DNA from: Kiritimatiellia bacterium
GTDB lineage: Bacteria > Verrucomicrobiota > Kiritimatiellia > RFP12 > UBA1067
NCBI GenBank assembly: GCA_017547265.1
Contig: JAFYQC010000137.1
Coordinates: 1 to 11,169, forward strand
Length of the DNA stretch: 11,169 nt
Direction: 5' to 3'
The position numbers and the translations under genes were made by a program. The notes below the pieces were generated by a model. It did not search any database, was not told the DNA's origin, and saw only the letters and a program-made list of their open reading frames with translations. Within the stretch, counting starts at the first letter, position 1, and each line of letters begins with the position of its first letter. This document shows, piece after piece, positions 1 to 11,169 of the stretch.

Positions 1-1014
1 AACACTCAAACCCTCAAACCCTCAAACCCTTTCTCCCGATTCCTCTCCATCTCCGGCTGCACCGAGCACAACCTCAAGAACATCACCGCCCACTTTCCCG
101 TTGGCGCGTTCACGGTCGTAACCGGCGTCTCTGGCTCTGGCAAGTCGACGCTCGTCGACGAGACGCTTAAGAGGGCGCTTCTCCAGAAGTTCTACCACGC
201 GAAGGACATCCCCGGCAAGTTCAAGAAGCTCACGGGCTGGGAGAACTTCGACAAGGTCGTCGAGATCGATCAGTCGCCCATCGGCCGTACGCCGCGCTCG
301 AACCCGGCGACATACGTCGGCTTCTTCTCCGAGATACGCGAGCTTTTTGCGAAGACCGAGTCTGCGCGAGCGCGCGGCTACACCCCTGGGCGCTTCTCCT
401 TCAATGTGAAGGGCGGGCGCTGCGAAACTTGCGGCGGCGACGGGTTGCAGAAACTCGAGATGAGTTTCCTTCCTGACGTCTACGTTACATGCGACCAGTG
501 CGGCGGCAAGCGGTTCAACTCCGAGACCCTTGAAGTCACCTACGGCGGCAAGAACATCGCGGACGTCCTCGAGATGACGGTCGCGGAGGGGTGCGAGTTC
601 TTCGCGAAGGTGCCGTCTCTCGCCCGCAAGCTCCAGACGCTAGTCGACGTCGGGCTTGGCTACATCGCGCTCGGGCAGTCCGCGACGACGCTTTCAGGCG
701 GCGAGGCCCAGCGCATCAAGCTCGCGACGGAACTCTCCCGTCGCTCGACGGGCAGAACCCTCTACCTTCTCGACGAGCCGACGACGGGGCTTCACTTCGA
801 CGACGTGGCGAAGCTGATGAAGCTTCTCCTGCGGCTACGAGACCAGGGGAACACCATTATCGTCATCGAGCACAACATTGATGTCATCCGTTGCGCCGAC
901 TGGGTTGTAGATCTTGGGCCAGGCGGAGGCGATGCAGGCGGCGAACTCGTCTGCGAAGGGCCCTTGGAAGCAGTGAAGGCCAGCCCTCGCTCGCTCACCG
1001 CCAAATTTATCTGA
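1..1014 (+). CDS. uvrA: UvrA, excinuclease ABC subunit A, C-terminal half (5' truncated by window)
   Basis: DNA damage sensor of nucleotide excision repair: a dimeric ABC ATPase that loads UvrB at lesions. The frame is open from base 1 and ends at TGA 1012-1014, giving 337 residues, the second ATPase half. The start codon lies upstream; no in-frame ATG, GTG or TTG occurs before 406. Visible in order: a segment starting [15 protein letters not shown] that matches the start of the second ABC domain, Walker [10 protein letters not shown] (124-150), the UvrA hallmark [17 protein letters not shown], the zinc finger with Cys codons at 421, 430, 490 and 499 (CETC...CDQC), ABC signature [12 protein letters not shown] (from 691), Walker [13 protein letters not shown] and H-loop IVIEHN. 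All catalytic motifs are intact. The C-terminus (SLTAKFI) is short but normal for the family. No rho-independent terminator follows. The first ten or so residues come from a repeat tract (see 5-30). Confidence 0.97.
5..30. repeat. 8-bp tandem repeat (CTCAAACC x3.25)
   Basis: Three perfect copies of CTCAAACC (5-12, 13-20, 21-28) plus CT. The first 37 bases of the window hold no G on this strand. The tract is in the open uvrA frame and would encode part of the linker before the second ATPase domain. The unit is not a multiple of three, so a change in copy number would shift the frame. It resembles in composition the G-poor spacer before recA (5476-5546). Its upstream extent is unknown. Confidence 0.8.
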
Positions 1015-1041
1015 TTTCTTTTGATTTTCGCAATAAGAAAT
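1014..1041. repeat. Inverted repeat around the -35 of the C10 peptidase promoter
   Basis: ATTTCTT (1014-1020) and AAGAAAT (1035-1041) form a perfect 7-bp inverted repeat with a 14-base interval. It starts at the last base of the uvrA stop codon, and the -35 hexamer lies in the interval. It could be an operator or a weak AU-only hairpin at the uvrA 3' end. An AT-rich palindrome of this size can also arise by chance. Confidence 0.35.
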
Positions 1042-1049
1042 GGTATCAT
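1021..1049 (+). promoter_or_regulatory. Sigma70-type promoter of the C10 peptidase gene
   Basis: -35 TTGATT (1021-1026), a 17-base spacer, and -10 TATCAT (1044-1049) preceded by TGG, an extended -10. Transcription should start near 1056, giving a leader of about 22 bases before ATG 1078. Upstream of the ATG only a weak GGG is seen as Shine-Dalgarno. The promoter lies entirely in the spacer after uvrA, so the gene is probably transcribed independently. Confidence 0.75.
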
Positions 1050-1077
1050 ATCGGCTTGTAATATCGGGTAAAATACC

Positions 1078-4000
1078 ATGAAAACAAGAAAAGCACTGTC
1101 GCTCTTCTTCTGTACGGTTGCGTTTGCCGCAGGCGCGGCAACGGTTTCCGTTGACACGGCCAAATTTGCGGCCGGCTCCTGGGCACTTTCTGATGCCGCG
1201 CTTGGCGTGAGACACGGTCGCACGGTCAGTGGCGCGACTGCATACGAAGTTGACGGAAAGCCCGGCTTCTACGCAGTCTCCCTCAAGGGGGGTGGAACGC
1301 TCTTCCTCGCGGCTGACGACGAGATCGGACCAGTCCTCGCGTTTACGGCGGAGTCTGCGCCAGACCTTTCTGCAGGAAGTCCATTGCTGGATCTTCTTGA
1401 GCGGGATATAAGGGCGCGTCGCGGAATTGTTGCGGGCGAGAAGGAGCTGGACGGCGCAATGCCCAATGCTGCGCCGAAGGCCAGGGTCTCGAAAACGGCG
1501 GGCGCAAAGGCGGGCTGGGCTGCGCTTACGGCCTCGGCCACCAAGGCGTCCAACCTTGATCACGCCGACGGCGCTTCGTCCGATGCTGCGCAAGCTGCGG
1601 CCAAGCCACAGGAGACCCTTGCCGTTTCCGACATCCGCGTCGAGCCCTTGATCAAGTCGCAGTGGAGTCAGCAGAAGGCAGGTGGGGGCAATTGCTACAA
1701 CTACTATACGCCAAACAACTATCCCTGCGGCTGTGTCGCGACGGCGGCGGCTCAGATCATGCGCTATTGGAGATATCCGGACATGGAGCTTCCCGCATTT
1801 TCGAATGACTGCACCGTCAACGGTGCGACAGTGCCACTTTCTTCCGTGGATAGCCCCGATCTCCGCGTCTACGACTGGGACAGCATGAAGCTGATACCGA
1901 AAGCGTCTGCGACAGTAGCGGAACGCCAGGCCATTGGCCGGCTCACTTCTGACATTGGCGTCGCCTTGGGCGCAATCTACGGTTCCAGCGGTACTGGTGC
2001 GATGTCCATCGACGTAAGCAAGGTGTTCCGCAATACGTTCGCCTATCCAAGCGGCGTGGAGTACTGGAACAACGATTGGGAGAATGCGCTTAGGAACGGC
2101 GGCGGGCTTCATGGGCGCGAGGCGCGCAACAAGGTTATATACGCCTGTCTTGACGCGGGGCTTCCCGTCCAGCTGGCGATTGCGGATGGCAACGGCTACA
2201 ACGGCCATGCGGTTGTCTGCGACGGATACGGTTTTGTGACGATTGGCGACGTGGAGACCGAATTCGCCCACATCAACATGGGCTGGGCTGGTTCCGGCGA
2301 CATGTGGTACAACATCCCCGACATCGATTCCACCGTCGGTTCGACGGCCGGGCAGGGTGGCGTTCACTTCCAGATCATAAAGGGAGCGACCTTCAATATT
2401 GCGACCGAGGCTTTCGGCGCGCTGCTCACCGGGCGTATAACCGACGACGGGGATCCTGTCGCCAATGCCGTTGTGACGGTCTACGACGTGAGAACCTACA
2501 CCTTGCTCGGCACCTGCACGACAGATGCGCACGGCATATATGCTTTCAGACTCCCTTCTCGCGTGGACTACTATGTCAAGGCGGTGTCCGAGGACGGCGT
2601 GAAGACCGGTTCGCTCGATGCTGTTCCTCTCGGGGAGACTCAGGAAGACGGCAACTATGTCGTTTACAGCATAGACGACGTCGGCAACTCGTGGGGCAAC
2701 GACATTGACATTACCATTCCGCACGTTAGGATCGTCGGTGGAAACTACTATGCAAACTTGAACTCGGCACTTGTCGACGCGTCGACGATGGAAAATCCCA
2801 TTGTCGAGATTTTCGGCCCTACGCAGCTCAAGAAGCCGGTCACCATCACTACGAATATCACGATTCGCACCGTTCCAAGCCCGAGTGCCGACTATCCAGA
2901 CCCGACGCTCGCCGACTGCGAGGTGACCGTTCTCGACGACGCGATTACGTATAACGGCTGGGTTCTGCAGGTGGCCGATGGTGCACGCGTTGATATATCC
3001 AACATATTGGTCCGTGCGGGAACTGCTTTGACCATCGGTCTCGACGTCCTCGAGGGTGGAGCTGCGTCGTTTGCCGGGCAGATTGACCTCGGCACTGTAG
3101 TTACGCGCACTGACGATGCTTTTATCCTTGCCGGGCCGCTTGAGCCAGTGGGCACAGGCCGCCTTTCGGTCTCCTATTCTGGTGCCATGGCCCGTTACTC
3201 GCAGTTTGGCGTTTACGAGTGTTCCGACGCAGATGCTGAGAACTATGCCAAACTCGTCTTCAACATGCTTGCTCCGACGCTGACCGGCAAGGTCGGCGAG
3301 CCAGGCACCCTCGTATGGGAACGAGTCTCCATCGACCCTTCCATTGCTGTTGCCTCTGCTTCAAATGACGAAATCGGCGTTACGCGCTATCTCTCGGTGG
3401 ACTTGCTTTTCGAGGACTACACCAACGGCGCCGAAATCGTCTTCTTGAGGGACTGCCCCGCGGAAATGTTCACAAACGCCGTTACCGTGTCCAAGGCGAC
3501 TACAATTCGCTCTGACGGCGATGTTCCTTTTGTCGTGACCATGGGGAAGAACGCCGGCTTCACGGTGCAGGGCGGTGACGCAAGCCTTGAATTCTCCAAT
3601 GTCACGTTCACGCGTTCCGAATCTTCTCCTGTAAATCTCGTAACAGTCAAGGACGGTGCATCGTTTACGCTCGGTGACGGTGCAACCATTGCCGACCTTA
3701 AGCCTTCTGGGAATGCCAGCGCGGTGTACGTCGAGAAGGGACTTGTTACCATGCAGGATGGTTCCGCCATTACGAATTGCGTGGCGACGCGTCTGGCCAC
3801 AGGCATGGCGGGCGGCGTTTACCTCAAGGGCGCGGATTGCACGTTTGACTTCGCGGGCGGTCAGATAACAGGCTGCAAGGCAAATCCAGGCAAAGGCAGC
3901 GGAGCCGTGTATGCAGAGAAATCCGCGACTGTCAAGGTCTCCGGTTCGGCTACCGCGTATGGGAACAAGGCCAATACGAGCGTTCGCAACATCTATGTTC

Positions 4001-5475
4001 CTGGCTATGATGCCCTTATTCTCTCCGGCGGGCTTACTGGTGGCGAAATCGGCGTCTACTGCTATGGTGGCACCGCGAGTGGAAAGTCGTTTGCCACTGT
4101 CGGCGACAGCGTCTCGCCCGATCTCGTGTCCGAGCACTTCAGCAACGACTATAGCGCAAACTGCTCCGCAGAGCCGTCTGACGACGAAGCTACGCTTGTG
4201 TGGGTAGCAGAGCCCCCAGGGCCCAAGCCCGTGCCAGAGGCCGAGGCCGAGGCCCGACTCACCGTCGGCTCGTCGTCTGCGACTTATGCCTCCGTAAGCG
4301 ACGCTTTTGAGGCCGCCGGAGAGAGCGATGCGAAGATAGAATTGCTAAAGGATGCGTCGCTTTCCGGCAATCTGGCTGTTGCTGCCGCTGTTGTCTTGGA
4401 CGGCAATGGCTTTACGCTCTCCCGCTCTGGCGACTTCTGCATTTCGGTCACGAACGCGGATGTGTCTCTCGTTGTGACTAACATAGTCCTAGACGGTGGA
4501 ACGGGTGAAGGCAGGATACTTGACGTCGTCGCCGGTTCCCTTTGCCTAGATTCTGGCACGGCGGTGCAAAACGTCTCTGGGTCGACAAAGGAAATGGTCG
4601 CACCAATCGTGATCTGGAACGGTTCGCTTGTCGTGAATCCCGGTGTAACGATTTCCGGCTGCACCAACAACTACACGCCGGAGCCTGGCGGCTCGCTTAC
4701 TGCGGGCGCCATAGTCGTGAATGGCCCGAAGGCGCATGTGGAGTTCCTAGGCGGCTCGATAACTGGCTGCACTGGCGCACGTGCCGGCGGCGTCACTGTC
4801 GCTAACGGCGCCGAGGCGCGCGTAAGTGGCGACTTGCAGATAAAGAACAACAAGCTCATCTCCGGCGAGGACGGAAACCTTGTCGTTCACGACAACAGCA
4901 GTCTTGTGCTGGCAGGACTCCTGACCGGTCGAGTAGGTTACACTGAAGGTGTGGGCGGCGACACTAACGTGTTCGGCACTGTTGACGCAGACTTCATTGC
5001 GTCCACCACGGCGAGCAATCTCGTCGTCAGCGCGCGCAGGTTCCGGCATGACGTTATTGATGCGAAGGGCATGGTCGCCACGAACGAGACGGAGGCGCTG
5101 CTCGTGTGGAGTTCCGCAGTTGGCGATTCGACCGAGTTCACCAACGTCGTCGACAACGTGACGAATGTCTACAGTGTCATCCTCGTTGAGGTCGACGACG
5201 ATGAACCTGAAATAGTGGAGTGTGCGCCGTTTGCATTTGCCGCAATCGAAGAGGTCGCGTCGGGCACTTGGAAGCTCACGCTTAAGCCGGGCACCGAGCA
5301 CTGCGTCTACACGCTCAAGAGTTCCAGCGACCTTCAGACCTGGACTGCGGTCGGCAGCCCGAAGGAGCTTTCGGCCGACGACATTTCAGGCGCAGAACTT
5401 GAGTTCGTTTTCGAGGTCAATGACGCCGACGGAAAGAAATTCTGGAAGGTTGAGGGTGCAGACGGAATCCAATAA
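1078..5475 (+). CDS. Secreted C10-family (streptopain-like) cysteine peptidase with beta-helix modules
   Basis: An exported 1465-residue protein. Residues 1-20 are a Sec signal peptide: KTRK, a hydrophobic core, AGA as likely cleavage site, no convincing lipobox. Residues ~22-112 resemble the C10 prodomain (GFYAVSL, LFLAADDEIGPVLAFT). An Ala-rich linker follows to ~180. The peptidase domain spans ~185-435: YNYYTPNN, nucleophile Cys219 in CGCVATAAAQIMRYW, His377 in GHAVVCDGYGF, and Asn400/Trp403 in HINMGWAG. Residues ~447-520 look like a carboxypeptidase-regulatory-like beta sandwich. Repetitive beta-strand segments follow; modules ~762-1043 and ~1060-1345 are homologous, with GGQITGC/GGSITGC turns and matching TLVWV/LLVWS ends, joined by a Pro/Glu linker. 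Residues ~1378-1465 form a terminal beta domain (YTLKSSSDLQTW...KKFWKVEG). Streptopain itself is about 400 residues, so most of this protein is appendage. It probably acts at the cell surface or outside; substrate unknown. Catalytic residues look intact, so activity is expected but inferred. Confidence 0.9.
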   Translation: MKTRKALSLFFCTVAFAAGAATVSVDTAKFAAGSWALSDAALGVRHGRTVSGATAYEVDGKPGFYAVSLKGGGTLFLAADDEIGPVLAFTAESAPDLSAGSPLLDLLERDIRARRGIVAGEKELDGAMPNAAPKARVSKTAGAKAGWAALTASATKASNLDHADGASSDAAQAAAKPQETLAVSDIRVEPLIKSQWSQQKAGGGNCYNYYTPNNYPCGCVATAAAQIMRYWRYPDMELPAFSNDCTVNGATVPLSSVDSPDLRVYDWDSMKLIPKASATVAERQAIGRLTSDIGVALGAIYGSSGTGAMSIDVSKVFRNTFAYPSGVEYWNNDWENALRNGGGLHGREARNKVIYACLDAGLPVQLAIADGNGYNGHAVVCDGYGFVTIGDVETEFAHINMGWAGSGDMWYNIPDIDSTVGSTAGQGGVHFQIIKGATFNIATEAFGALLTGRITDDGDPVANAVVTVYDVRTYTLLGTCTTDAHGIYAFRLPSRVDYYVKAVSEDGVKTGSLDAVPLGETQEDGNYVVYSIDDVGNSWGNDIDITIPHVRIVGGNYYANLNSALVDASTMENPIVEIFGPTQLKKPVTITTNITIRTVPSPSADYPDPTLADCEVTVLDDAITYNGWVLQVADGARVDISNILVRAGTALTIGLDVLEGGAASFAGQIDLGTVVTRTDDAFILAGPLEPVGTGRLSVSYSGAMARYSQFGVYECSDADAENYAKLVFNMLAPTLTGKVGEPGTLVWERVSIDPSIAVASASNDEIGVTRYLSVDLLFEDYTNGAEIVFLRDCPAEMFTNAVTVSKATTIRSDGDVPFVVTMGKNAGFTVQGGDASLEFSNVTFTRSESSPVNLVTVKDGASFTLGDGATIADLKPSGNASAVYVEKGLVTMQDGSAITNCVATRLATGMAGGVYLKGADCTFDFAGGQITGCKANPGKGSGAVYAEKSATVKVSGSATAYGNKANTSVRNIYVPGYDALILSGGLTGGEIGVYCYGGTASGKSFATVGDSVSPDLVSEHFSNDYSANCSAEPSDDEATLVWVAEPPGPKPVPEAEAEARLTVGSSSATYASVSDAFEAAGESDAKIELLKDASLSGNLAVAAAVVLDGNGFTLSRSGDFCISVTNADVSLVVTNIVLDGGTGEGRILDVVAGSLCLDSGTAVQNVSGSTKEMVAPIVIWNGSLVVNPGVTISGCTNNYTPEPGGSLTAGAIVVNGPKAHVEFLGGSITGCTGARAGGVTVANGAEARVSGDLQIKNNKLISGEDGNLVVHDNSSLVLAGLLTGRVGYTEGVGGDTNVFGTVDADFIASTTASNLVVSARRFRHDVIDAKGMVATNETEALLVWSSAVGDSTEFTNVVDNVTNVYSVILVEVDDDEPEIVECAPFAFAAIEEVASGTWKLTLKPGTEHCVYTLKSSSDLQTWTAVGSPKELSADDISGAELEFVFEVNDADGKKFWKVEGADGIQ

Positions 5476-5546
5476 CCCCTAGCCTCCAACTCCAACTCTG
5501 AACTCCAACTCCTGACCCCTGACCCCTAACTACTGACTCCTAATCT
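5476..5546. repeat. G-poor repetitive spacer upstream of recA
   Basis: The 71 bases between the peptidase stop and recA are almost all C, T and A, with only five G. They consist of degenerate short repeats: CTCCAACT (three near copies at 5483-5511), CCTGACC twice, then CTAACT, CTGACTC and CTAATCT. No terminator, sigma70 promoter or Shine-Dalgarno is visible, although recA follows directly. It may be an unstructured C/A-rich leader or a lineage-specific intergenic filler. It resembles the CTCAAACC repeat at 5-30. Confidence 0.65.
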
Positions 5547-6578
5547 ATGGCAACAAAAGATACTGCAAAGAAGACTGCTGGCAATACCGCGCTTGATGCG
5601 GTGATGAGCCAGATCCGCAAGGAATTCGGCGAGATGGCGATCATGCGTCTCGGCGACCAGGAGGTGAAGGAAGTTCCCGTGATTTCCACCGGTGCGCTTT
5701 CGCTCGACATGGCGCTTGGCGTCGGCGGGCTTCCGCGCGGACGCATCGTTGAGTGCTACGGCCAGGAATCGTCGGGCAAGACGACGCTTACCCTGCACGT
5801 TATCGCGAATGCCCAGAAGGCGGGCGGCGTCGCGGCGTTTATCGACGCGGAACACGCGCTCGATCCGGGCTACGCCAAGAAGATCGGCGTCGATCTCGAC
5901 AACCTGATTGTCTCCCAGCCGAACAGCGGCGAAGAGGCGCTTACGATTTGCGAGCAGCTCGCGAAGTCGGGCGCGCTTGACGTGATCGTGGTCGACTCTG
6001 TCGCGGCGCTCGTTCCGCAGGCCGAAATCGACGGCAACATGGGCGACAGCCACATGGGGCTTCAGGCACGTCTCATGTCGCAGGCGATGAGAAAGCTCAC
6101 CGCTGTTGTCGCGCAGACGAAGACGCTGATCATCTTCACGAACCAGGTGCGCGAGAAGATCGGTGTGATGTTCGGCAATCCCGAGACGACGCCCGGCGGC
6201 AAGGCGCTCAAGTTCTACGCAAGCTGCCGCTTGCAGGTGCAGCGCATCGGCGCGATCAAGAATCCCGCCGGACAGGTCGTTGGCAACAGGACGCGCGTCA
6301 AGGTCGTGAAGAACAAGGTCGCGCCGCCTTTCACCGAGGCCGAGTTCGACATCCTCTACACTTGCGGCATTTCGTACGAGGGCTCGGTCCTCGACGCGGC
6401 GCTTGCGCGCGGCGTAGTCGAGAAGCGCGGCAGCTGGCTCAGCTTTGGCGACGAGCAGCTTGCGCAGGGCGCGCTTGCGACGATCGAGTACTTAAAGGCG
6501 AACCCAGACGTGACGGCGAAGATCGTCGAGCTCGTGAAGTCCACGCCGGTCAACCCAGCGCTGGCTAAGAAAAAATAG
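5547..6578 (+). CDS. recA: RecA recombinase
   Basis: ATP-dependent strand-exchange protein for homologous recombination and activator of LexA-type self-cleavage. 343 residues, normal core length. Visible: Walker [10 protein letters not shown] (72-80), catalytic Glu in DAEHALD (Glu102), Walker [11 protein letters not shown] (147-156), loop L1 around [20 protein letters not shown] (160-179), loop L2 [20 protein letters not shown] (199-218), and [11 protein letters not shown]. Oddities: the Walker A second residue is Gln where almost all RecA have Pro, and the C-terminus ends in a basic ALAKKK instead of the acidic tail of E. coli RecA. The ATG at 5547 is chosen because the protein aligns from its first residues; no Shine-Dalgarno precedes it. 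No palindrome matching the E. coli or Gram-positive LexA box was found in the spacer. It may be transcribed from the peptidase gene or from an unrecognised promoter. No terminator follows it before the repeats at 6599. Confidence 0.98.
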
Positions 6579-6598
6579 GGAAGCGGCAAGAAAAGATT

Positions 6599-6751
6599 TT
6601 GCGAGTCCCGGAGCGAGTGAGCAGAGCGGGACGAACGAAGGCAGAAAAGAATTGCGAGTCCCGGAGCGAGTGAGCGAAGCGGGACGAACGAAGGTAGGAA
6701 AGAAAGATTTGCGAGTCCCGGAGCGAGTGAGCGAAGCGGAACGAACGAAGG
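6599..6751. repeat. Three copies of a 43-bp imperfectly palindromic element
   Basis: Copies at 6599-6641, 6652-6694 and 6709-6751, each beginning TTGCGAGTCCCGGAGCGAG and ending ACGAACGAAGG or close to it, separated by 10 and 14 bases of A/G-rich sequence. Within a copy, GTCCCG and CGGGAC can pair across 16 bases. Copy 3 has CGGAAC and loses one pair; copy 1 differs as GCAGAG against GCGAAG. The array fills most of the 193 bases between recA and tRNA-Ser and contains no recognised gene. It looks like a REP-like or short mobile intergenic repeat. It is not a CRISPR: the spacers are far too short and no cas gene is present. Confidence 0.85.
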
Positions 6752-6771
6752 GACGAGCCTCAACTAATAAA

Positions 6772-6861
6772 GGAGAGTTGGCGGAGTGGTTGAACGCGGC
6801 GGTCTTGAAAACCGTTGAGGATGCAAGTCCTCCGGGGGTTCGAATACCTCACTCTCCGCCA
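6772..6861 (+). tRNA. tRNA-Ser(UGA)
   Basis: 90 nt with encoded CCA (6859-6861). Acceptor GGAGAGT pairs fully with ACTCTCC (6851-6857), discriminator G. D-stem GCG/CGC. Anticodon stem GCGGT/ACCGT with loop CTTGAAA, anticodon TGA at 6806-6808, reading UCA and other UCN codons. The long class II variable arm (GAGGA/TCCTC) is typical of tRNA-Ser. Oddity: the T-arm reads GGGGG-TTCGAAT-ACCTC, so the conserved 53-61 G-C pair is G-A. No promoter is obvious just upstream; it may be transcribed with recA. Confidence 0.95.
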
Positions 6862-6884
6862 CCTATGGCGGGTGGCAAAAAGAA

Positions 6885-6926
6885 ACTTCGCGCACTTTTT
6901 ATAAGGGGTGCGCGAAGTCTTTTTTC
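6885..6926. terminator. Bidirectional rho-independent terminator between the two tRNA-Ser genes
   Basis: A perfect 11-bp stem, ACTTCGCGCAC (6885-6895) with GTGCGCGAAGT (6908-6918), and a 12-base loop. On the plus strand it is followed by C and six T (6920-6925). On the minus strand it is followed by TTTCTTTTT, because the plus strand has AAAAAGAAA before it. It ends tRNA-Ser(UGA) transcripts from the left and nagA/tRNA-Ser(GCU) transcripts from the right. It lies only two bases from the CCA end of the minus-strand tRNA. Confidence 0.92.
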
Positions 6927-6928
6927 AC

Positions 6929-7022
6929 TGGCGGAGAGAGAGGGATTCGAACCCTCGGTACGGAAATTAACCCGTACGACGATTTAGCAAACCGTTGCCT
7001 TCAGCCACTCGGCCATCTCTCC
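6929..7022 (-). tRNA. tRNA-Ser(GCU)
   Basis: 94 nt on the minus strand with encoded CCA (complement of 6929-6931). Acceptor GGAGAGA pairs with TCTCTCC, discriminator G. D-stem GCC/GGC. Anticodon stem ACGGT/ATCGT with loop TTGCTAA, anticodon GCT at 6986-6988, reading AGC and AGU. Variable arm GTACGG/CCGTAC, T-arm GAGGG-TTCGAAT-CCCTC, fully canonical. It lies 22 bases downstream of the nagA stop, with its own promoter at 7039-7067 and the shared terminator just after it. Confidence 0.96.
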
Positions 7023-7038
7023 AAATCGTTTGGTGCGT

Positions 7039-7067
7039 ATTGTATCAAATGCGCTGTTCGCCGTCAA
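7039..7067 (-). promoter_or_regulatory. Promoter of tRNA-Ser(GCU), embedded in the nagA 3' end
   Basis: On the minus strand: -35 TTGACG (7062-7067), a 17-base spacer, and -10 TACAAT (7039-7044). The -35 and the spacer are inside nagA. The nagA stop codon TGA (7045-7047) directly abuts the -10, giving TGATACAAT, so the stop codon doubles as the TGn extended -10 element. Expected start near 7032, about ten bases before the mature tRNA 5' end at 7022. Confidence 0.75.
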
Positions 7068-8208
7068 TGAAGACGGCCGATGGCTTCCAGCTGCGCGGAT
7101 TGATTACGACGAGGTCTGCGATGTATCCCTTCTCGACCTTGCCGAGCGTCTTGCCCCAGCCGAGTTCGATGGCCTGGTTCCACGAGGTCGTGCGGACGAG
7201 GTCCTTGAGCGGAATGCCTGTGACGTCGTGGACGTTCTTGAGGCCCATGCCCATCCAGAGCGTCGAGCCAGCGAGGTTGCCGCCTTCGACGAGACGTGCC
7301 TCGCCGCCCTTGAGAAGAACCTTGAGTCCGCCCATCTCGAAGGCGTAGCCGTCCTTGCAGTGCGAGCAGCGGAGCGAGTCGGTGATCATCTGGATGTGCG
7401 CGAGACTGCGACGCGTGAAGATGAGGTTGAGCATGTCGGGGCAGAGGTGGATCTTGTCGCAGATGACCTCGGTGTTGAGGTCCTCGACGAGGAAGCCAGC
7501 GCCGACCATGCCGATCTCGCGGTGGTGGAGCGGCGTCATCTGGTTGCAGAAGTGCGTCATGTGGCGAAGGCCGTTCTTGTAGGCGGGAATGAGATCCTTG
7601 AACTTCGCGCCAGTGTGGCCGCAACTCGGTACGACTCCCATCTTGAAGCACTCTTTCGCGAACTTAGCGCCGCCCTCGGTCTCGACCGCGTAGGAGATGA
7701 GTTTTACGGGATAGACCTTCGAGATCTCCTTGACTTCCTTGATGTCGGGCCTGCGGACGAACTTGGGGTTCTGCGCGCCGCAGCACTTAACGTTGATGAA
7801 CGGACCCTCGAGGTGGATGCCGGGAACCTTCGCGTATGGCATGCCGGCGTCGGCATAGGCCTTGGCGTTCTTTGCGGCCGCCTTAAGCTCGCCGTTGGAG
7901 ACAGTGAGAGTCGTCGGGAGGACAGTCGTAACGCCCTCTTCGAGCTTCGCCTTCGCGAACTCAAAGATCGCCTTGGGGTCGGCATCGCAGAAGTCGTAGC
8001 CGAGCGCGCCGTGGGTATGGACGTCGATGAAGCCAGGCATCACATACTGCCCGCGCACGTCGACGACGGTCGTGTTGGCGTCGGACTTGACGGACTTGGA
8101 GCCCTTGACGATCTTCTTTATCTTCTTGCCTTCGATGATGATCGTGGCGTTCTCGATGTCGACGTCGGGGGAAACGACGTGCGCGTTTACAATGACGGTC
8201 TTTTTCAT
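7045..8208 (-). CDS. nagA: N-acetylglucosamine-6-phosphate deacetylase
   Basis: Cytoplasmic amidohydrolase removing acetate from GlcNAc-6-phosphate to give GlcN-6-phosphate, a step in amino-sugar catabolism and cell-wall recycling. 387 residues, normal length. Visible: PGFIDVHTHG (58-67) with His64 and His66, metal ligand Glu134 in GIHLEGPFIN, His198 in GHTGA, His219 in MTHFCNQMTPLHHREIG, His254 in CDKIHLCPDML, catalytic Asp277 in MITDSL, and LAGSTL near 312. Spacing of Glu134, His198, His219, His254 and Asp277 follows the E. coli residues with a small constant offset, so an active enzyme is expected. It is fairly Cys-rich (CC at 142-143, CSHC at 281-284). ATG at 8206-8208 is preceded by AAGGAG seven bases upstream and a strong promoter. 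No nagB or transporter gene is in the window. Transcription can continue into tRNA-Ser(GCU). Confidence 0.95.
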   Translation of the reverse strand: MKKTVIVNAHVVSPDVDIENATIIIEGKKIKKIVKGSKSVKSDANTTVVDVRGQYVMPGFIDVHTHGALGYDFCDADPKAIFEFAKAKLEEGVTTVLPTTLTVSNGELKAAAKNAKAYADAGMPYAKVPGIHLEGPFINVKCCGAQNPKFVRRPDIKEVKEISKVYPVKLISYAVETEGGAKFAKECFKMGVVPSCGHTGAKFKDLIPAYKNGLRHMTHFCNQMTPLHHREIGMVGAGFLVEDLNTEVICDKIHLCPDMLNLIFTRRSLAHIQMITDSLRCSHCKDGYAFEMGGLKVLLKGGEARLVEGGNLAGSTLWMGMGLKNVHDVTGIPLKDLVRTTSWNQAIELGWGKTLGKVEKGYIADLVVINPRSWKPSAVFIDGEQRI

Positions 8209-8215
8209 GTTAAGT

Positions 8216-8221
8216 CTCCTT
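8216..8221 (-). promoter_or_regulatory. Shine-Dalgarno of nagA
   Basis: AAGGAG on the minus strand, seven bases before ATG (8206-8208). It fixes the nagA start. It contrasts with recA and the ketosynthase gene, which have no such site. Confidence 0.85.
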
Positions 8222-8231
8222 GTTGACAGAG

Positions 8232-8260
8232 ATTATCCTAAAAATCGCCTGCGAAGTCAA
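8232..8260 (-). promoter_or_regulatory. Promoter of nagA
   Basis: Minus strand -35 TTGACT (8255-8260), a 17-base spacer, and -10 GATAAT (8232-8237). Expected start near 8225, giving a short leader of about 17 bases that holds the Shine-Dalgarno. The -35 lies only about 25 bases from the -10 of the divergent ketosynthase promoter, so the two promoters are nearly back to back and could interfere or share an operator. Confidence 0.8.
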
Positions 8261-8283
8261 GTGGGCAGACACCTCCCTTTTTT

Positions 8284-8292
8284 TGGTATAAT
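8284..8292 (+). promoter_or_regulatory. Extended -10 promoter of the ketosynthase-like gene
   Basis: TGGTATAAT: a consensus -10 TATAAT (8287-8292) with the TGn extension. The -35 is weak (CAGACA at 8266-8271, with a short 15-base spacer). Seven bases separate the -10 from GTG 8300, so the expected transcription start coincides with, or is within a base of, the start codon. This predicts a leaderless mRNA. Confidence 0.7.
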
Positions 8293-8299
8293 ACGGACA

Positions 8300-9703
8300 G
8301 TGGAATCTTCTATCGCCATTGTCGGCATGTCGTGCCGATTCGCCGGGTGCCCGACGCCGCCGGCTTTCTGGGGCGCCATCATGGCGCGCCGATGTTGCCT
8401 TTCGCCGCTTGGCCCCGACGCCGAGATCCCGCTCGGCCAGCGCAATGTCTTCAAGCGGCCCTATCCAGTGAGGATGGGACAGCTCGGACCTCTCTTCTCG
8501 TGCGTTCCGTCGATGCAGAACTTCCCGCGCCAGGTGAACGCTGGCGAGAACCAGGACCTCTACTTCGCGACTCAGCTCGCGTTTGACGCGCTTGCAGACG
8601 CTGGACTTCGCCCGCACTCTCCGACTCCCATAAGGGGCAGTGTGCGCGTCGGCTACGCTCCGCCGTTCAATGCCTCTACGGTGAACTGGCTTCAGCATAC
8701 GGCGTTCCTCGACCAGACGATGGATATCATCCGCCGCTTCTTCCCGCGATCGCCCGAGGAGTCGCTCGACATCGTGAAGGAGAAGCTCGTAGAGTCGCTT
8801 CCCGCGCCAAACGCCTCGTCCTTCCTGCTTGGCACCGGCTACCGCTTTGCGTCGTGGATTGCACGCGAATGCTCTTTTGCGGGCGTGGCGACGACGATGG
8901 ACGCTGGGCTTCTGACCGGCGCCGCGACTTTGCAGGACGCAATAGCCGATCTTGAGTCAGGCCAGGTAGACGTCGCTCTCGCGGGTGCGCTTACGCCGCC
9001 GATTCCACGCGCCTATCTAGAGGGGCTCTCAGGCGAGGTGCCGTTTTCGACGCGTACCGAGCTCTATCCTTTTGCGCAGGATCAGGACGGCACGATCCCC
9101 GGCGAGGGCGGTGCGTTCTTCGTGTTGAAGCGCCGCGCCGACGCGCTGCGTGACCACGATCGAATCTACGCGCTTATTCGCACGATTGCGATAGGCCACA
9201 ACCCAGAGGACGACCCATCCGCCATTCTCGCGCAGGCGACCGAGGGGAGCGGAATCCCCGTCAAGACAGTCGGGCTCATAGAGGCGGACGGCTCTGGAAT
9301 AGCCGTCTCCGAGCAGCGAGAGATCGACGCTGTCCACCGGCTTTGGGGCGAACACCGCCCTGGCGGGCCGCTCGTTGCGATGGGCTCGGTGAAGGGCAAT
9401 ATCGGCCACACGCTGCGCGCGGCCATGGCGGCCGGCGTCGCGAAGGCAGCGCTTGCGCTTTTCCGCCGTGTCCTTCCGCCGCAGATTTCGCCGGAGCGCC
9501 CGCACGAGTCGCTCGCCAACCTTGCATCGAGCGCATACCTTCTCGACGAGGCGCGTCCGTGGATAACGGGCGACAGCTCGAGCCCGCGCCGAGCCGCCGT
9601 CCTTGGCGCGAACTTCGACGCAATCGACCCAGTTGGCACCGCCGCGAAGGGCGGTCGTGCCGCGGCGATAGTCCTTGAAGAGGAACCGGAGGACCGGCCG
9701 TGA
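8300..9703 (+). CDS. Ketosynthase-fold protein with degenerate active site (PUFA/Hgl-type, CLF-like)
   Basis: 467 residues, a stand-alone KS. GTG 8300 is chosen as start because the KS family opening IAIVGMSCRF follows at residue 5; reading the same frame further upstream only gives antisense nagA. KS features: DLYFATQLAFDALADAGL, an SLPAPNASSFLLGTG segment like the SLP...F.G.LGN region of PUFA and Hgl-type synthases, DGTIPGEGGAFFVLKRRADA, and SVKGNIGH. Ungapped alignment of the nucleophile elbow puts DAGLLTGAATL where DTACSSSLVAL is expected, so the catalytic Cys is Leu204. EAHGTGT appears as EADGSGI, so the first catalytic His is Asp330. The second His, His370, is kept. Condensation activity is therefore unlikely; a structural or chain-length-factor-like partner role is inferred. 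Cys191 is 13 residues before the elbow and not positioned to replace the nucleophile. It overlaps the next gene by four bases. Confidence 0.88.
   Translation: MESSIAIVGMSCRFAGCPTPPAFWGAIMARRCCLSPLGPDAEIPLGQRNVFKRPYPVRMGQLGPLFSCVPSMQNFPRQVNAGENQDLYFATQLAFDALADAGLRPHSPTPIRGSVRVGYAPPFNASTVNWLQHTAFLDQTMDIIRRFFPRSPEESLDIVKEKLVESLPAPNASSFLLGTGYRFASWIARECSFAGVATTMDAGLLTGAATLQDAIADLESGQVDVALAGALTPPIPRAYLEGLSGEVPFSTRTELYPFAQDQDGTIPGEGGAFFVLKRRADALRDHDRIYALIRTIAIGHNPEDDPSAILAQATEGSGIPVKTVGLIEADGSGIAVSEQREIDAVHRLWGEHRPGGPLVAMGSVKGNIGHTLRAAMAAGVAKAALALFRRVLPPQISPERPHESLANLASSAYLLDEARPWITGDSSSPRRAAVLGANFDAIDPVGTAAKGGRAAAIVLEEEPEDRP
9688..9693 (+). promoter_or_regulatory. Shine-Dalgarno deciding the start of the AT-like gene
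   Basis: GGAGGA, six bases before GTG 9700 and twelve before ATG 9706 in the same frame. The spacing favours GTG 9700, which overlaps the upstream stop as GTGA. It lies inside the upstream coding sequence, consistent with translational coupling. Confidence 0.65.
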
Positions 9704-11169
9704 ACATGGACTTCGGAGCAGCGGGAAGAAGCGAACTCGTCCTCGTGTCGGCGACGGACGACGAGGCGCTTGTCGGCGAAATCTCCCGCATCGTTGCGTT
9801 CCTCGACCGCATACCGGACGTGCCGCTCGCAGACGTCGCCTACACATGTTCGCTTACGAGCGGTGCCGCGGTCCTTGCGCTCGTAGTGTCGAGCGTCAAC
9901 GAACTCAGGGCGCGGCTTTTCTCCGCACGTTCGCGCATCGCGGCGGGCGCTGTGAAGATACGCGACAAGAGCGGCACTTACTACTTCCGCGAACATCTCG
10001 TTGGAGAGGGCCTTGGCAAGCTTGCGTTCGTCTACCCCGGCGTGATGAGCTACTACCCCGACATGCTCCGCGACATAGCGATACTCCATCCAGAGTGCCG
10101 CTCTGCGTTCGACGAGCTTGAGGAGGCGCTTTCCGACGATCCCGACTTCACGCCGTCGAGCTTCATCTTTCCGCCTGCGCCCTACTATCGCCACGACGCC
10201 GACATCTTCAGCTCTGGTGCGTACGCCCAGGCGTTCGTCGCGTCGTTCGCGGGATGCATTGCAATGTCGCGGCTTCTCGATCGCCTCGGCATCGTTCCCG
10301 ACGGCGTCGTCGGCTGCGTGGGTGGAGATCTCGCCGCGGTGATGCGCTCGGGTGCGGCAGGAGTGGGTAATCCGCGTCCCGTGAGGGTGCGCGCGATTCG
10401 CGAAATCTACAAGATCGTTGACAAGGCGGTGGACCATTCGGGGCTTCCCAAGACGTCGATGATCTCCGTTCTCCTCAAGCACGAGGGCGAGGCGGACGAG
10501 GTCGTCAAGGGCTTTCCGTCGGACAAAGTTGCGCTCGTGCTCGACTTCTCTCCGCGCCAGCGCACGTACGCGGTTGCGCCCGATTACGAGGAGACCGCGC
10601 TAAAGGCGTTTGCCGACGCCGGGATCCGCACGATGAAGCTCGCGCTTGAACGACCCTTCAACACGTCGAAGTGCAAGCCGATTGTTGCAGGCGTGAAGAA
10701 GTTCGCAGGCGACTGGATGAAGCATGAGGCGGTGTGCGACGTATATTCGTGCGCGCAGGCCGACCGGCTCCCCAGGAAAGCGCGTCCTGCTCGCAACGAC
10801 ACGGCCGAGCGTTGGGCGCAGCCGGTGAGGTTCCGCGAGACGATCCTCAAGATGCACGCCGACGGCTATCGCGTGTTCCTCGAAGTCGGCCCTCGCGGGC
10901 TGATGACGGCGGCGGTCTCCGAGACGCTGAAGGGTTCCGACTTTGCGGCCATTGCGCTCAACTCGATACACCGTCGCGGCGTATTGCAGGCGTGCCATGC
11001 GATTGGCCAGCTTGCCGCGTACGGCGTGAAGTTCGATTTTTCCAAGGCTTTCGAGCGCCGTCGCGTGAGGAAGCTCGACTTCGACTCCGCGATATCGCTC
11101 GAGGTGCGCCGCGATGCCGAGATGCTGCTTTCGAGCGCGTTCCCGCGGCTGACGCTTCTTGGCGACGAG
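9700..11169 (+). CDS. Acyltransferase-fold protein with degenerate active site (PKS/PUFA-type), 3' truncated
   Basis: Open from GTG 9700 (alternative ATG 9706) to the window end, at least 490 residues. Residues ~12-100 match the KS-AT linker of modular synthases (IPDVPLADVAYTC at 38-50). The AT-like domain begins at LAFVYPG (109-114) and includes LDRLGIVPDGVVG, FNTSKCKPI and FLEVGPRG (393-400), followed by a LAAYGVKFDF segment of the usual AT tail. The catalytic set is lost: FPGQGSQ is YPGVMSY (oxyanion Gln is Val115), GHSxGE is GCVGGD (nucleophile Ser is Val207, its His is Cys206), and the FHTP/FHSP His is Asn321. Acyl loading is therefore unlikely. It is translationally coupled to the KS-like gene, as if a KS-AT polypeptide had been split in two. 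Whether further domains (ACP, KR) follow after ~residue 455 cannot be seen. An alternative is a divergent PfaB-like subunit. Confidence 0.8.
   Translation, partial: MNMDFGAAGRSELVLVSATDDEALVGEISRIVAFLDRIPDVPLADVAYTCSLTSGAAVLALVVSSVNELRARLFSARSRIAAGAVKIRDKSGTYYFREHLVGEGLGKLAFVYPGVMSYYPDMLRDIAILHPECRSAFDELEEALSDDPDFTPSSFIFPPAPYYRHDADIFSSGAYAQAFVASFAGCIAMSRLLDRLGIVPDGVVGCVGGDLAAVMRSGAAGVGNPRPVRVRAIREIYKIVDKAVDHSGLPKTSMISVLLKHEGEADEVVKGFPSDKVALVLDFSPRQRTYAVAPDYEETALKAFADAGIRTMKLALERPFNTSKCKPIVAGVKKFAGDWMKHEAVCDVYSCAQADRLPRKARPARNDTAERWAQPVRFRETILKMHADGYRVFLEVGPRGLMTAAVSETLKGSDFAAIALNSIHRRGVLQACHAIGQLAAYGVKFDFSKAFERRRVRKLDFDSAISLEVRRDAEMLLSSAFPRLTLLGDE

Follow-up and report, generated by a model that had tools for sequence, protein, structure and literature searches.

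Two overlapping open reading frames (ORFs) at the 3' end of an 11,169-nucleotide stretch of DNA from a Kiritimatiellia bacterium (contig JAFYQC010000137.1, positions 1 to 11,169; here called the window) encode a pseudo-ketosynthase (KS*) followed by a pseudo-acyltransferase (AT*), and they raise the question of why a synthase whose catalytic residues are no longer recognisable stays under strong purifying selection. The answer suggested by this analysis is that the synthase has a tail worth keeping. In orthologues, the frame that begins with AT* continues into a dehydratase-like part (DH*) and ends in an intact 4'-phosphopantetheinyl transferase (PPTase), and it is probable that a degenerate subunit of a type I polyketide synthase (PKS) of the secondary-lipid-synthase kind now serves as the cell's holo-acyl carrier protein (holo-ACP) synthase, with the dead domains kept as a platform. 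The window was part of a Kiritimatiellae-type genome, and nine orthologous loci (L001 to L009), some of them from goat duodenum or sheep colon, were found by a genome-collection search. Genome-wide statements made below come from the genomes of these orthologues and of relatives, not from the window's own genome. As the window ends before both domains, the DH and PPTase of its own gene are presumed from the orthologues.

The AT*-DH*-PPTase gene, identified from the orthologues, enters the window with its 5' part, 490 codons cut by the window end (9700 to 11169; this and all other features of the gene pair lie on the + strand). A KS-AT linker domain (PF22621) was matched at residues 13 to 73 (9736 to 9918), and an AT* fold at approximately residues 106 to 465 (10015 to 11094) was indicated by both profile and structure. 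The PF00698 match was at the cut-off (32.7 bits), the fold was retained in the predicted structure and the structural-match rows (VIA) spanned residues 1 to 465 of the long model. The first-pass annotation, made from the letters alone, had described the loss of the whole catalytic set of this domain, and alignments with the solved AT 8jpt, intact ATs and FabD bore out each of the replacements. Val115 (10042 to 10044) occupied the column of the Gln of FPGQGSQ. GCVGGD (10312 to 10329) was present where GHSxGE is expected, with Val207 in the Ser column, and RPFNT (10651 to 10665) placed Asn321 in the column of the catalytic His. Both the catalytic Ser and the catalytic His were gone in all 121 AT* proteins (P0001 and 120 homologues), and in the window's clade the replacements were fixed, GGD or GGE and, in PFNT, the Asn being present in 121 of 121 proteins. 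The domain thus had the fold of a malonyl/acyl transferase of the PF00698, FabD type without the Ser of GHSxGE or the catalytic His of an active one.

A similar loss was detected in KS* (8300 to 9703), a protein of 467 aa with a GTG start and a TGA stop at 9701 to 9703, which matched PF00109 (1e-20) and PF02801 (3.7e-18). Alignment with FabF-like and intact KSs placed Leu204 (8909 to 8911) in the column of the catalytic Cys, and among 121 sequences (the window and 120 homologues) this column held Ile in 52, Met in 42, Leu in 15, Val in 10, Asn in 1 and Ala in 1, with Cys in none. The first catalytic His was replaced by Asp330 (9287 to 9289), and Asp was present in 121 of 121. A KGNIGH motif (9392 to 9409) was retained with its Lys365 (9392 to 9394) and the second His, His370 (9407 to 9409), both of which were found in all 121. 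The Cys-His-His triad of an active KS therefore reads Leu204, Asp330 and His370 in the window. Alignment A3 comprised the window and 37 of the 120 KS homologues. The decarboxylating KSQ type has Gln in the Cys column and was rejected, Leu being present in the window and Gln in 0 of 121. Asp330 was fixed alongside Lys365 and His370, whereas the Cys column varied and was mostly hydrophobic; a residual binding role for these three residues may be suggested by this pattern. The predicted model of KS* was poor (pLDDT 64); Foldseek matches to PKS KS-AT structures reached E values down to 7.4e-27.

The full AT*-DH*-PPTase ORF was 1,108 to 1,113 aa long in the nine orthologues. In L002 (1,108 aa), the order of parts was linker, AT*, a disordered stretch, a dehydratase-like part and PPTase. 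The dehydratase-like part scored 23.4 bits with PF14765, just below the cut-off of 23.7, and had Phe instead of the catalytic His; close relatives of the window also lacked the DH Asp, and His was absent from its column in at least 107 of 121 proteins. No carrier domain (PF00550) was found in the L002 and L008 proteins by profile search at E values up to 1. The PPTase of L002 matched PF01648 (1e-17) and was above the TIGR00556 cut-off in two stretches (55.3 bits), and the best solved-structure sequence matches of the PPTase region were the alpha chain of fungal fatty acid synthase (FAS) 4v58 (E 1.3e-5) and AcpS. The full-length predicted structure had a mean pLDDT of 86.9, with values below 50 at residues 1 to 9, 165 to 172, 465 to 506 and 517 to 528.

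Analysis of the PPTase indicated that its motifs were intact. The WCAKE motif kept its Lys-Glu pair in 121 of 121 proteins that had lost the AT Ser and His, the Asp-x-Glu string was read for 117 of the 121 (commonest strings), and D992, E994, K1034 and E1035 (P0001 numbering) were invariant in alignment A2, which comprised 57 of 241 proteins. D992, E994 and E1035 correspond to the Asp-Glu-Glu magnesium triad described for Sfp-type PPTases in PMC4103896. Furthermore, the two TIGR00556 stretches lie in one frame as two AcpS-like halves, which assigns the tail to the two-lobed group II (Sfp-type) enzymes. Group I AcpS is free-standing and about 120 aa long, and membership of this group was rejected by size, since open frames of 1,115 to 1,166 aa were present in the nine orthologue genomes.

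An intact PPTase on the same polypeptide provides a concrete reason for retaining dead synthase domains, and the strength of this retention was examined as the ratio of nonsynonymous to synonymous substitution (dN/dS). Median values by the NG86 method, which were calculated without a codon-bias correction and included pairs with dS up to 1.9, were 0.095 for KS* (36 pairs), 0.124 for the linker and AT* (45 pairs), 0.134 for DH* (36 pairs) and 0.107 for the PPTase (36 pairs). The KS of L002 was omitted from this set because its first 25 residues (at approximately 8600 to 8676 of that locus) are out of frame with the rest; this break, found in one of the nine orthologous loci, may be real or may stem from the assembly. 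The AT*-DH*-PPTase frame was open in the window and in all nine orthologues. Constraint on the dead domains is about as tight as on the live PPTase domain, and medians of about 0.1 in both argue strongly against decay and against the relaxed selection that the first-pass annotation had named as its refuter. Its proposal that two inactivated domains, retained in frame, form a scaffold or regulatory assembly or use different chemistry was upheld in part. The losses, the open frame and the purifying selection all stood and a scaffold was the best reading, but a third dead domain and an intact PPTase had not been foreseen. Active KS, ACP, ketoreductase (KR) and DH genes, which it had sought beyond position 11169, were absent from the next downstream position, where the ORF was KamA-type radical-SAM-like in L002 and MnmA-like in L008 (by eye).

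A search of the class detected matches to P0135 at an E value of ≤1e-30 in 139 of 345 genomes, among the matches listed. Seven of these (G047, G148, G186, G276, G313, G319 and, judged by its KS and DH residues, G524) were classed separately as intact, and 132 were counted as eroded by their similarity to P0135, active sites being read directly in a subset of loci. In a PF01648 census of these 132 genomes, the fusion was the only PPTase above the cut-off in 127, in 126 of them by position and in G408 by inference, as a contig end truncates the fusion there and the sole PPTase match, a 128-aa frame starting another contig, was counted as the missing piece. Another two (G428 and G473) had zero PPTase matches, with the fusion cut by the contig end. 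Among 126 class genomes sampled, 12 had a PPTase fusion, and the other 114 comprised 106 with a separate PPTase and 8 with none. At this recovery rate, a separate PPTase would be expected to be seen in approximately 123 of the 132 eroded genomes if they had one. PF01648 detected a PPTase in 118 of the 126 class genomes, in 10 of 14 controls (all but four archaea) and in 283 of 288 genomes of a phylum sample, where most frames were shorter than 400 aa among the matches listed. A second PPTase model, applied at an E value of ≤1 to 22 genomes, of which 18 were eroded, gave no match beyond the fusion in 17 of these 18 and a partial one in G110. Overall, profile searches indicated that another PPTase is absent from nearly all carriers.

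The substrate side was also present in these genomes. AcpP-like frames were found in 22 of 22, with a DSL motif in 16 of the 20 AcpP loci read (L166 to L169 had no motif match), and FabF-like, FabD-like and AcpP-like frames were found in all nine orthologue genomes. Further short carrier-protein matches were detected besides the AcpP-like ORFs. A partner megasynthase is absent from the genomes examined by profile search: no KS in a frame of more than 1,000 aa was found in the nine orthologue genomes or, among the matches listed, in 58 of 59 eroded genomes. G110, which was outside this 59-genome KS search, had carrier-domain matches in a 2,527-aa frame. In the window's relatives the AcpP stretch read DSLDSVELIM (L150 to L153, L155 to L158, L164 and L165), in four intact-synthase genomes it read DSLDTVELVM (L154 and L160 to L162), and L163 (G110) and L159 (G107) differed from both; it is possible that this stretch co-varies with the changed PPTase.

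Intact relatives pointed to the origin of the fusion. In G186, a KS that has the Cys-His-His triad and an AT-DH-PPTase complete in its residues lay ≤17 kb from a megasynthase that combines KS, AT and KR with carrier domains. The contig of G276 that carries an intact KS also carries a megasynthase, and another contig begins with an intact AT-DH-PPTase. Proteins of 1,574 to 1,919 aa that unite KS, AT, DH and PPTase in a single chain, frequently with a carrier domain as well, filled the larger part of the lower half of the homologue list that held the best 120 of 238 (the other two lists held the best 120 of 605 and the best 120 of 678). These PPTase-bearing two-subunit type I PKS or secondary lipid synthases (among P0179 to P0241; G186 and G276) have the same domain order as the fusion and a clear sequence kinship to it, whereas the window's clade lacks the KS Cys/His, the AT Ser/His, the DH His/Asp and the ACP domain, and no partner megasynthase was found for it.

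In a quick tree of 55 of 151 proteins, with some long branches, the eroded proteins formed one clade of 41 rows (SH-aLRT 100), and parsimony required one change each for the DH His and the AT His and three each for the AT Ser and the DH Asp. The 151-protein set comprised 15 of the 121 proteins P0001 to P0121, all 120 of P0122 to P0241 and 16 locus proteins, and "eroded" was defined in it as absence of the DH His. The PPTase motif was retained in 79 of 79 eroded proteins with a readable PPTase, while 10 of 70 intact synthases failed the motif (two fragments were left out of these ratios); all of the 40 eroded genome loci in which it could be read also had it. Loci read from whole genomes were outside the tree and extended the range of losses. 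G406, G407 and G408 had lost the AT Ser and kept the AT His, with the KS triad kept in G407 and G408; G412 had kept the KS triad and the AT dyad and lost DH; and in G410 and G411 the KS was dead and the AT Ser lost. The KS Cys was retained in 5 of 55 eroded genomes with a KS read (G239, G407, G408, G412 and G496). Intact GHSxGE in orthologues, the other refuter of the first-pass annotation, was found together with the His in the more distant members G107, G210, G397, G398 and G412 but in none of the 121 close ones. Other eroded lineages had Glu, Thr, Gly, Ala, Ser or Asp in the KS Cys column and GVGLGA in AT. Eroded lineages reached down to 36% identity to P0001, and no KS, AT or DH catalytic residue was common to all eroded members read, the loss of the DH His being also the definition of erosion. 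A single universal order of loss was rejected, as lineages had lost KS, AT and DH residues in different combinations. These results indicated a graded series from an intact synthase to one with all synthase sites lost, with different lineages losing different sites.

Comparison with known systems showed partial likenesses. Integrated (group III) PPTases are described at the C terminus of yeast type I FAS and of bacterial PKSs (PMC3909215), and a PPTase lies inside pfaC of Pseudoalteromonas sp. DS-12 (PMC3098273). The orthologues L002 and L008 resemble these in having a PPTase within a synthase polypeptide. They differ in that group III enzymes are described as modifying, in cis, a carrier domain that belongs to an active synthase, whereas the fusion has no carrier domain and has lost its synthase residues. 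The sole PPTase of a bacterium can be Sfp-type, as with Synechocystis Sppt and Haemophilus Hppt (PMC4103896). The fusion shares with these single enzymes the presence of one PPTase per genome, which must serve the fatty-acid ACP, and the Asp-Glu-Glu triad. Sppt and Hppt are free-standing enzymes; the fusion PPTase is the tail of a 1,108-aa pseudo-synthase. PfaB, which combines a KS-like region with an AT, resembles the locus in having a catalytically incomplete KS beside an AT, but here the AT is dead and DH and PPTase follow. The profile check of this family that the first-pass annotation had recommended gave 17.8 bits with TIGR02816 for the window's 490 residues against a cut-off of 144.3, and the assignment was rejected. 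A PPTase carried by a catalytically dead synthase as the sole PPTase of a cell was not found in searches of the open-licence literature.

The arrangement of the two genes was consistent with joint expression. The AT* gene starts at a GTG overlapping the KS* stop codon (GTGA, 9700 to 9703), 7 nt downstream of a GGAGG Shine-Dalgarno sequence (9688 to 9692) read from the sequence. This arrangement was present in the window and in all nine orthologous loci, which supports an AT* start at the GTG at 9700 and suggests that the two ORFs are translationally coupled. A consensus-matching TATAAT (8287 to 8292) of the extended -10 type (TG, one base, box) lies 7 nt 5' of the KS* GTG; the proximity of this TG-n-TATAAT box (8287 to 8300) to the start suggests that KS* is translated from a leaderless or nearly leaderless transcript.

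These observations can be accommodated by the following course of events. The ancestral subunit would have had the order KS-AT-(ACP)-DH-PPTase and acted together with a megasynthase. Loss of the megasynthase and of the stand-alone PPTase in the eroded lineage would have left the C-terminal PPTase as the only enzyme moving 4'-phosphopantetheine from coenzyme A (CoA) onto AcpP, acting in trans and presumably essential. KS, AT and DH would then have been free to lose catalysis while still being retained as folded domains, which the PPTase most likely needs for dimerisation, stability or ACP docking; KS, AT and DH all bind the carrier protein in active synthases. In the window's clade, where KS* overlaps the fusion gene, KS* probably still belongs to this putative assembly with AT*-DH*-PPTase.

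Several results weigh against this proposal. The fixed replacements (KS Asp330 with Lys365 and His370; AT GGD and PFNT) could reflect a residual binding function, which the platform idea does not explain. In G524, the KS triad and DH residues are intact and the fusion is the only detected PPTase, so sole-PPTase status need not follow erosion. Another PPTase above the cut-off was carried by 3 of the 132 eroded genomes: by G397 on contigs C87 and C176, where KS domains also occur, in frames of 1,305 to 2,038 aa; by G110 on a contig with carrier-domain matches in 1,125- and 2,527-aa frames; and by G398, where no such KS or carrier link was seen. An additional match below the cut-off was present in G496. 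The absence of AcpS from eroded genomes is based on profile hidden Markov models, and the genomes include metagenome-assembled ones. In the selection analysis, a single PPTase pair reached a dN/dS of 1.524. Finally, no KS was directly upstream of the fusion in G430, G431, G433, G435, G443, G444, G448 and G503, and this weakens the case that KS* is strictly required as a partner. In G430, G443 and G444, KS* was kept, without the Cys, on another contig (L240, L241 and L242), with the fusion away from contig ends. No KS* was found in G503, where the sole KS found was FabF-like. The separation of KS* and fusion in G417 and G440, where both are at contig ends on separate contigs, was attributed to a contig break.

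The fixed replacements also bear on a regulatory role, in which acyl-ACP, malonyl-CoA or CoA would be ligands of KS*, AT* and DH* that are not turned over, and these domains would gate the PPTase, coupling holo-ACP supply to lipid demand. The residues that replace the catalytic ones do not drift in the window's clade, including the alternative AT GGE, and dead and live domains have about equally low median dN/dS. Other eroded lineages, though, fix different letters and lose different residues, so that a single conserved sensing pocket is unlikely, and this alternative was considered rather unlikely. A related and somewhat less doubtful possibility, advanced tentatively, is that dead KS, AT and DH pockets recognise ACP or acyl-ACP and gate the PPTase, a synthase having become a regulated holo-ACP synthase with an essential role across the lineage.

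Altered chemistry, or biosynthesis with active partners encoded elsewhere and the PPTase incidental, was judged improbable. The AT dyad persists in the five genomes listed above for GHSxGE, and the KS triad in the five listed for the KS Cys. Against this, no KS, AT or DH catalytic residue is universal among the eroded members read, a carrier domain is absent from the L002 and L008 proteins, and the partner megasynthase that such a pathway would use was missing from the nine orthologue genomes and, among the matches listed, from 58 of the 59 eroded genomes of the KS search. It was also considered improbable that the PPTase serves only a secondary-metabolite carrier and that AcpP is activated by an enzyme invisible to profile searches. 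The integrated PPTases described so far modify carrier domains of the same polypeptide (PMC3909215 and PMC4103896), and the extra short carrier-protein matches would provide candidate substrates; but PF01648 detected a PPTase in the large majority of class genomes and in every control other than the archaea, and no PKS cluster adjoined the fusion in the orthologous loci read. Simple gene decay of a polyketide synthase on its way out, for which the missing catalytic residues, one TAA in the PPTase-bearing stretch of G499 and one TGA in the matched stretch of G053 (although its frame is open for 1,173 aa) could be cited, was rejected on dN/dS and is hardly credible given the open frame in the window and all nine orthologues and the retention of the fusion in the 132 eroded genomes, down to the lowest identities.

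The remainder of the window contained features of other kinds. A 1,465-aa ORF (1078 to 5475, + strand) encodes a protein with a Peptidase C10 (streptopain-type) domain (PF01640, 1.1e-36); by eye its start resembles a signal sequence, and its long C-terminal part has no strong match in Pfam. Two tRNA-Ser genes, with anticodons tga (6772 to 6861, + strand) and gct (6929 to 7022, - strand), are 67 nt apart and sit between recA and an amidohydrolase-family gene.

The probable conversion of a synthase subunit into a holo-ACP synthase would mean that a part of a megasynthase system has turned into an apparent housekeeping enzyme. A holo-ACP synthase is normally about 120 residues long; if the proposal is true, 132 of 345 genomes of the class, among the matches listed, depend for fatty-acid synthesis on one of 1,108 residues. 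Furthermore, the locus carries a warning for annotation, as such genes may be labelled polyketide synthase where no polyketide is made.

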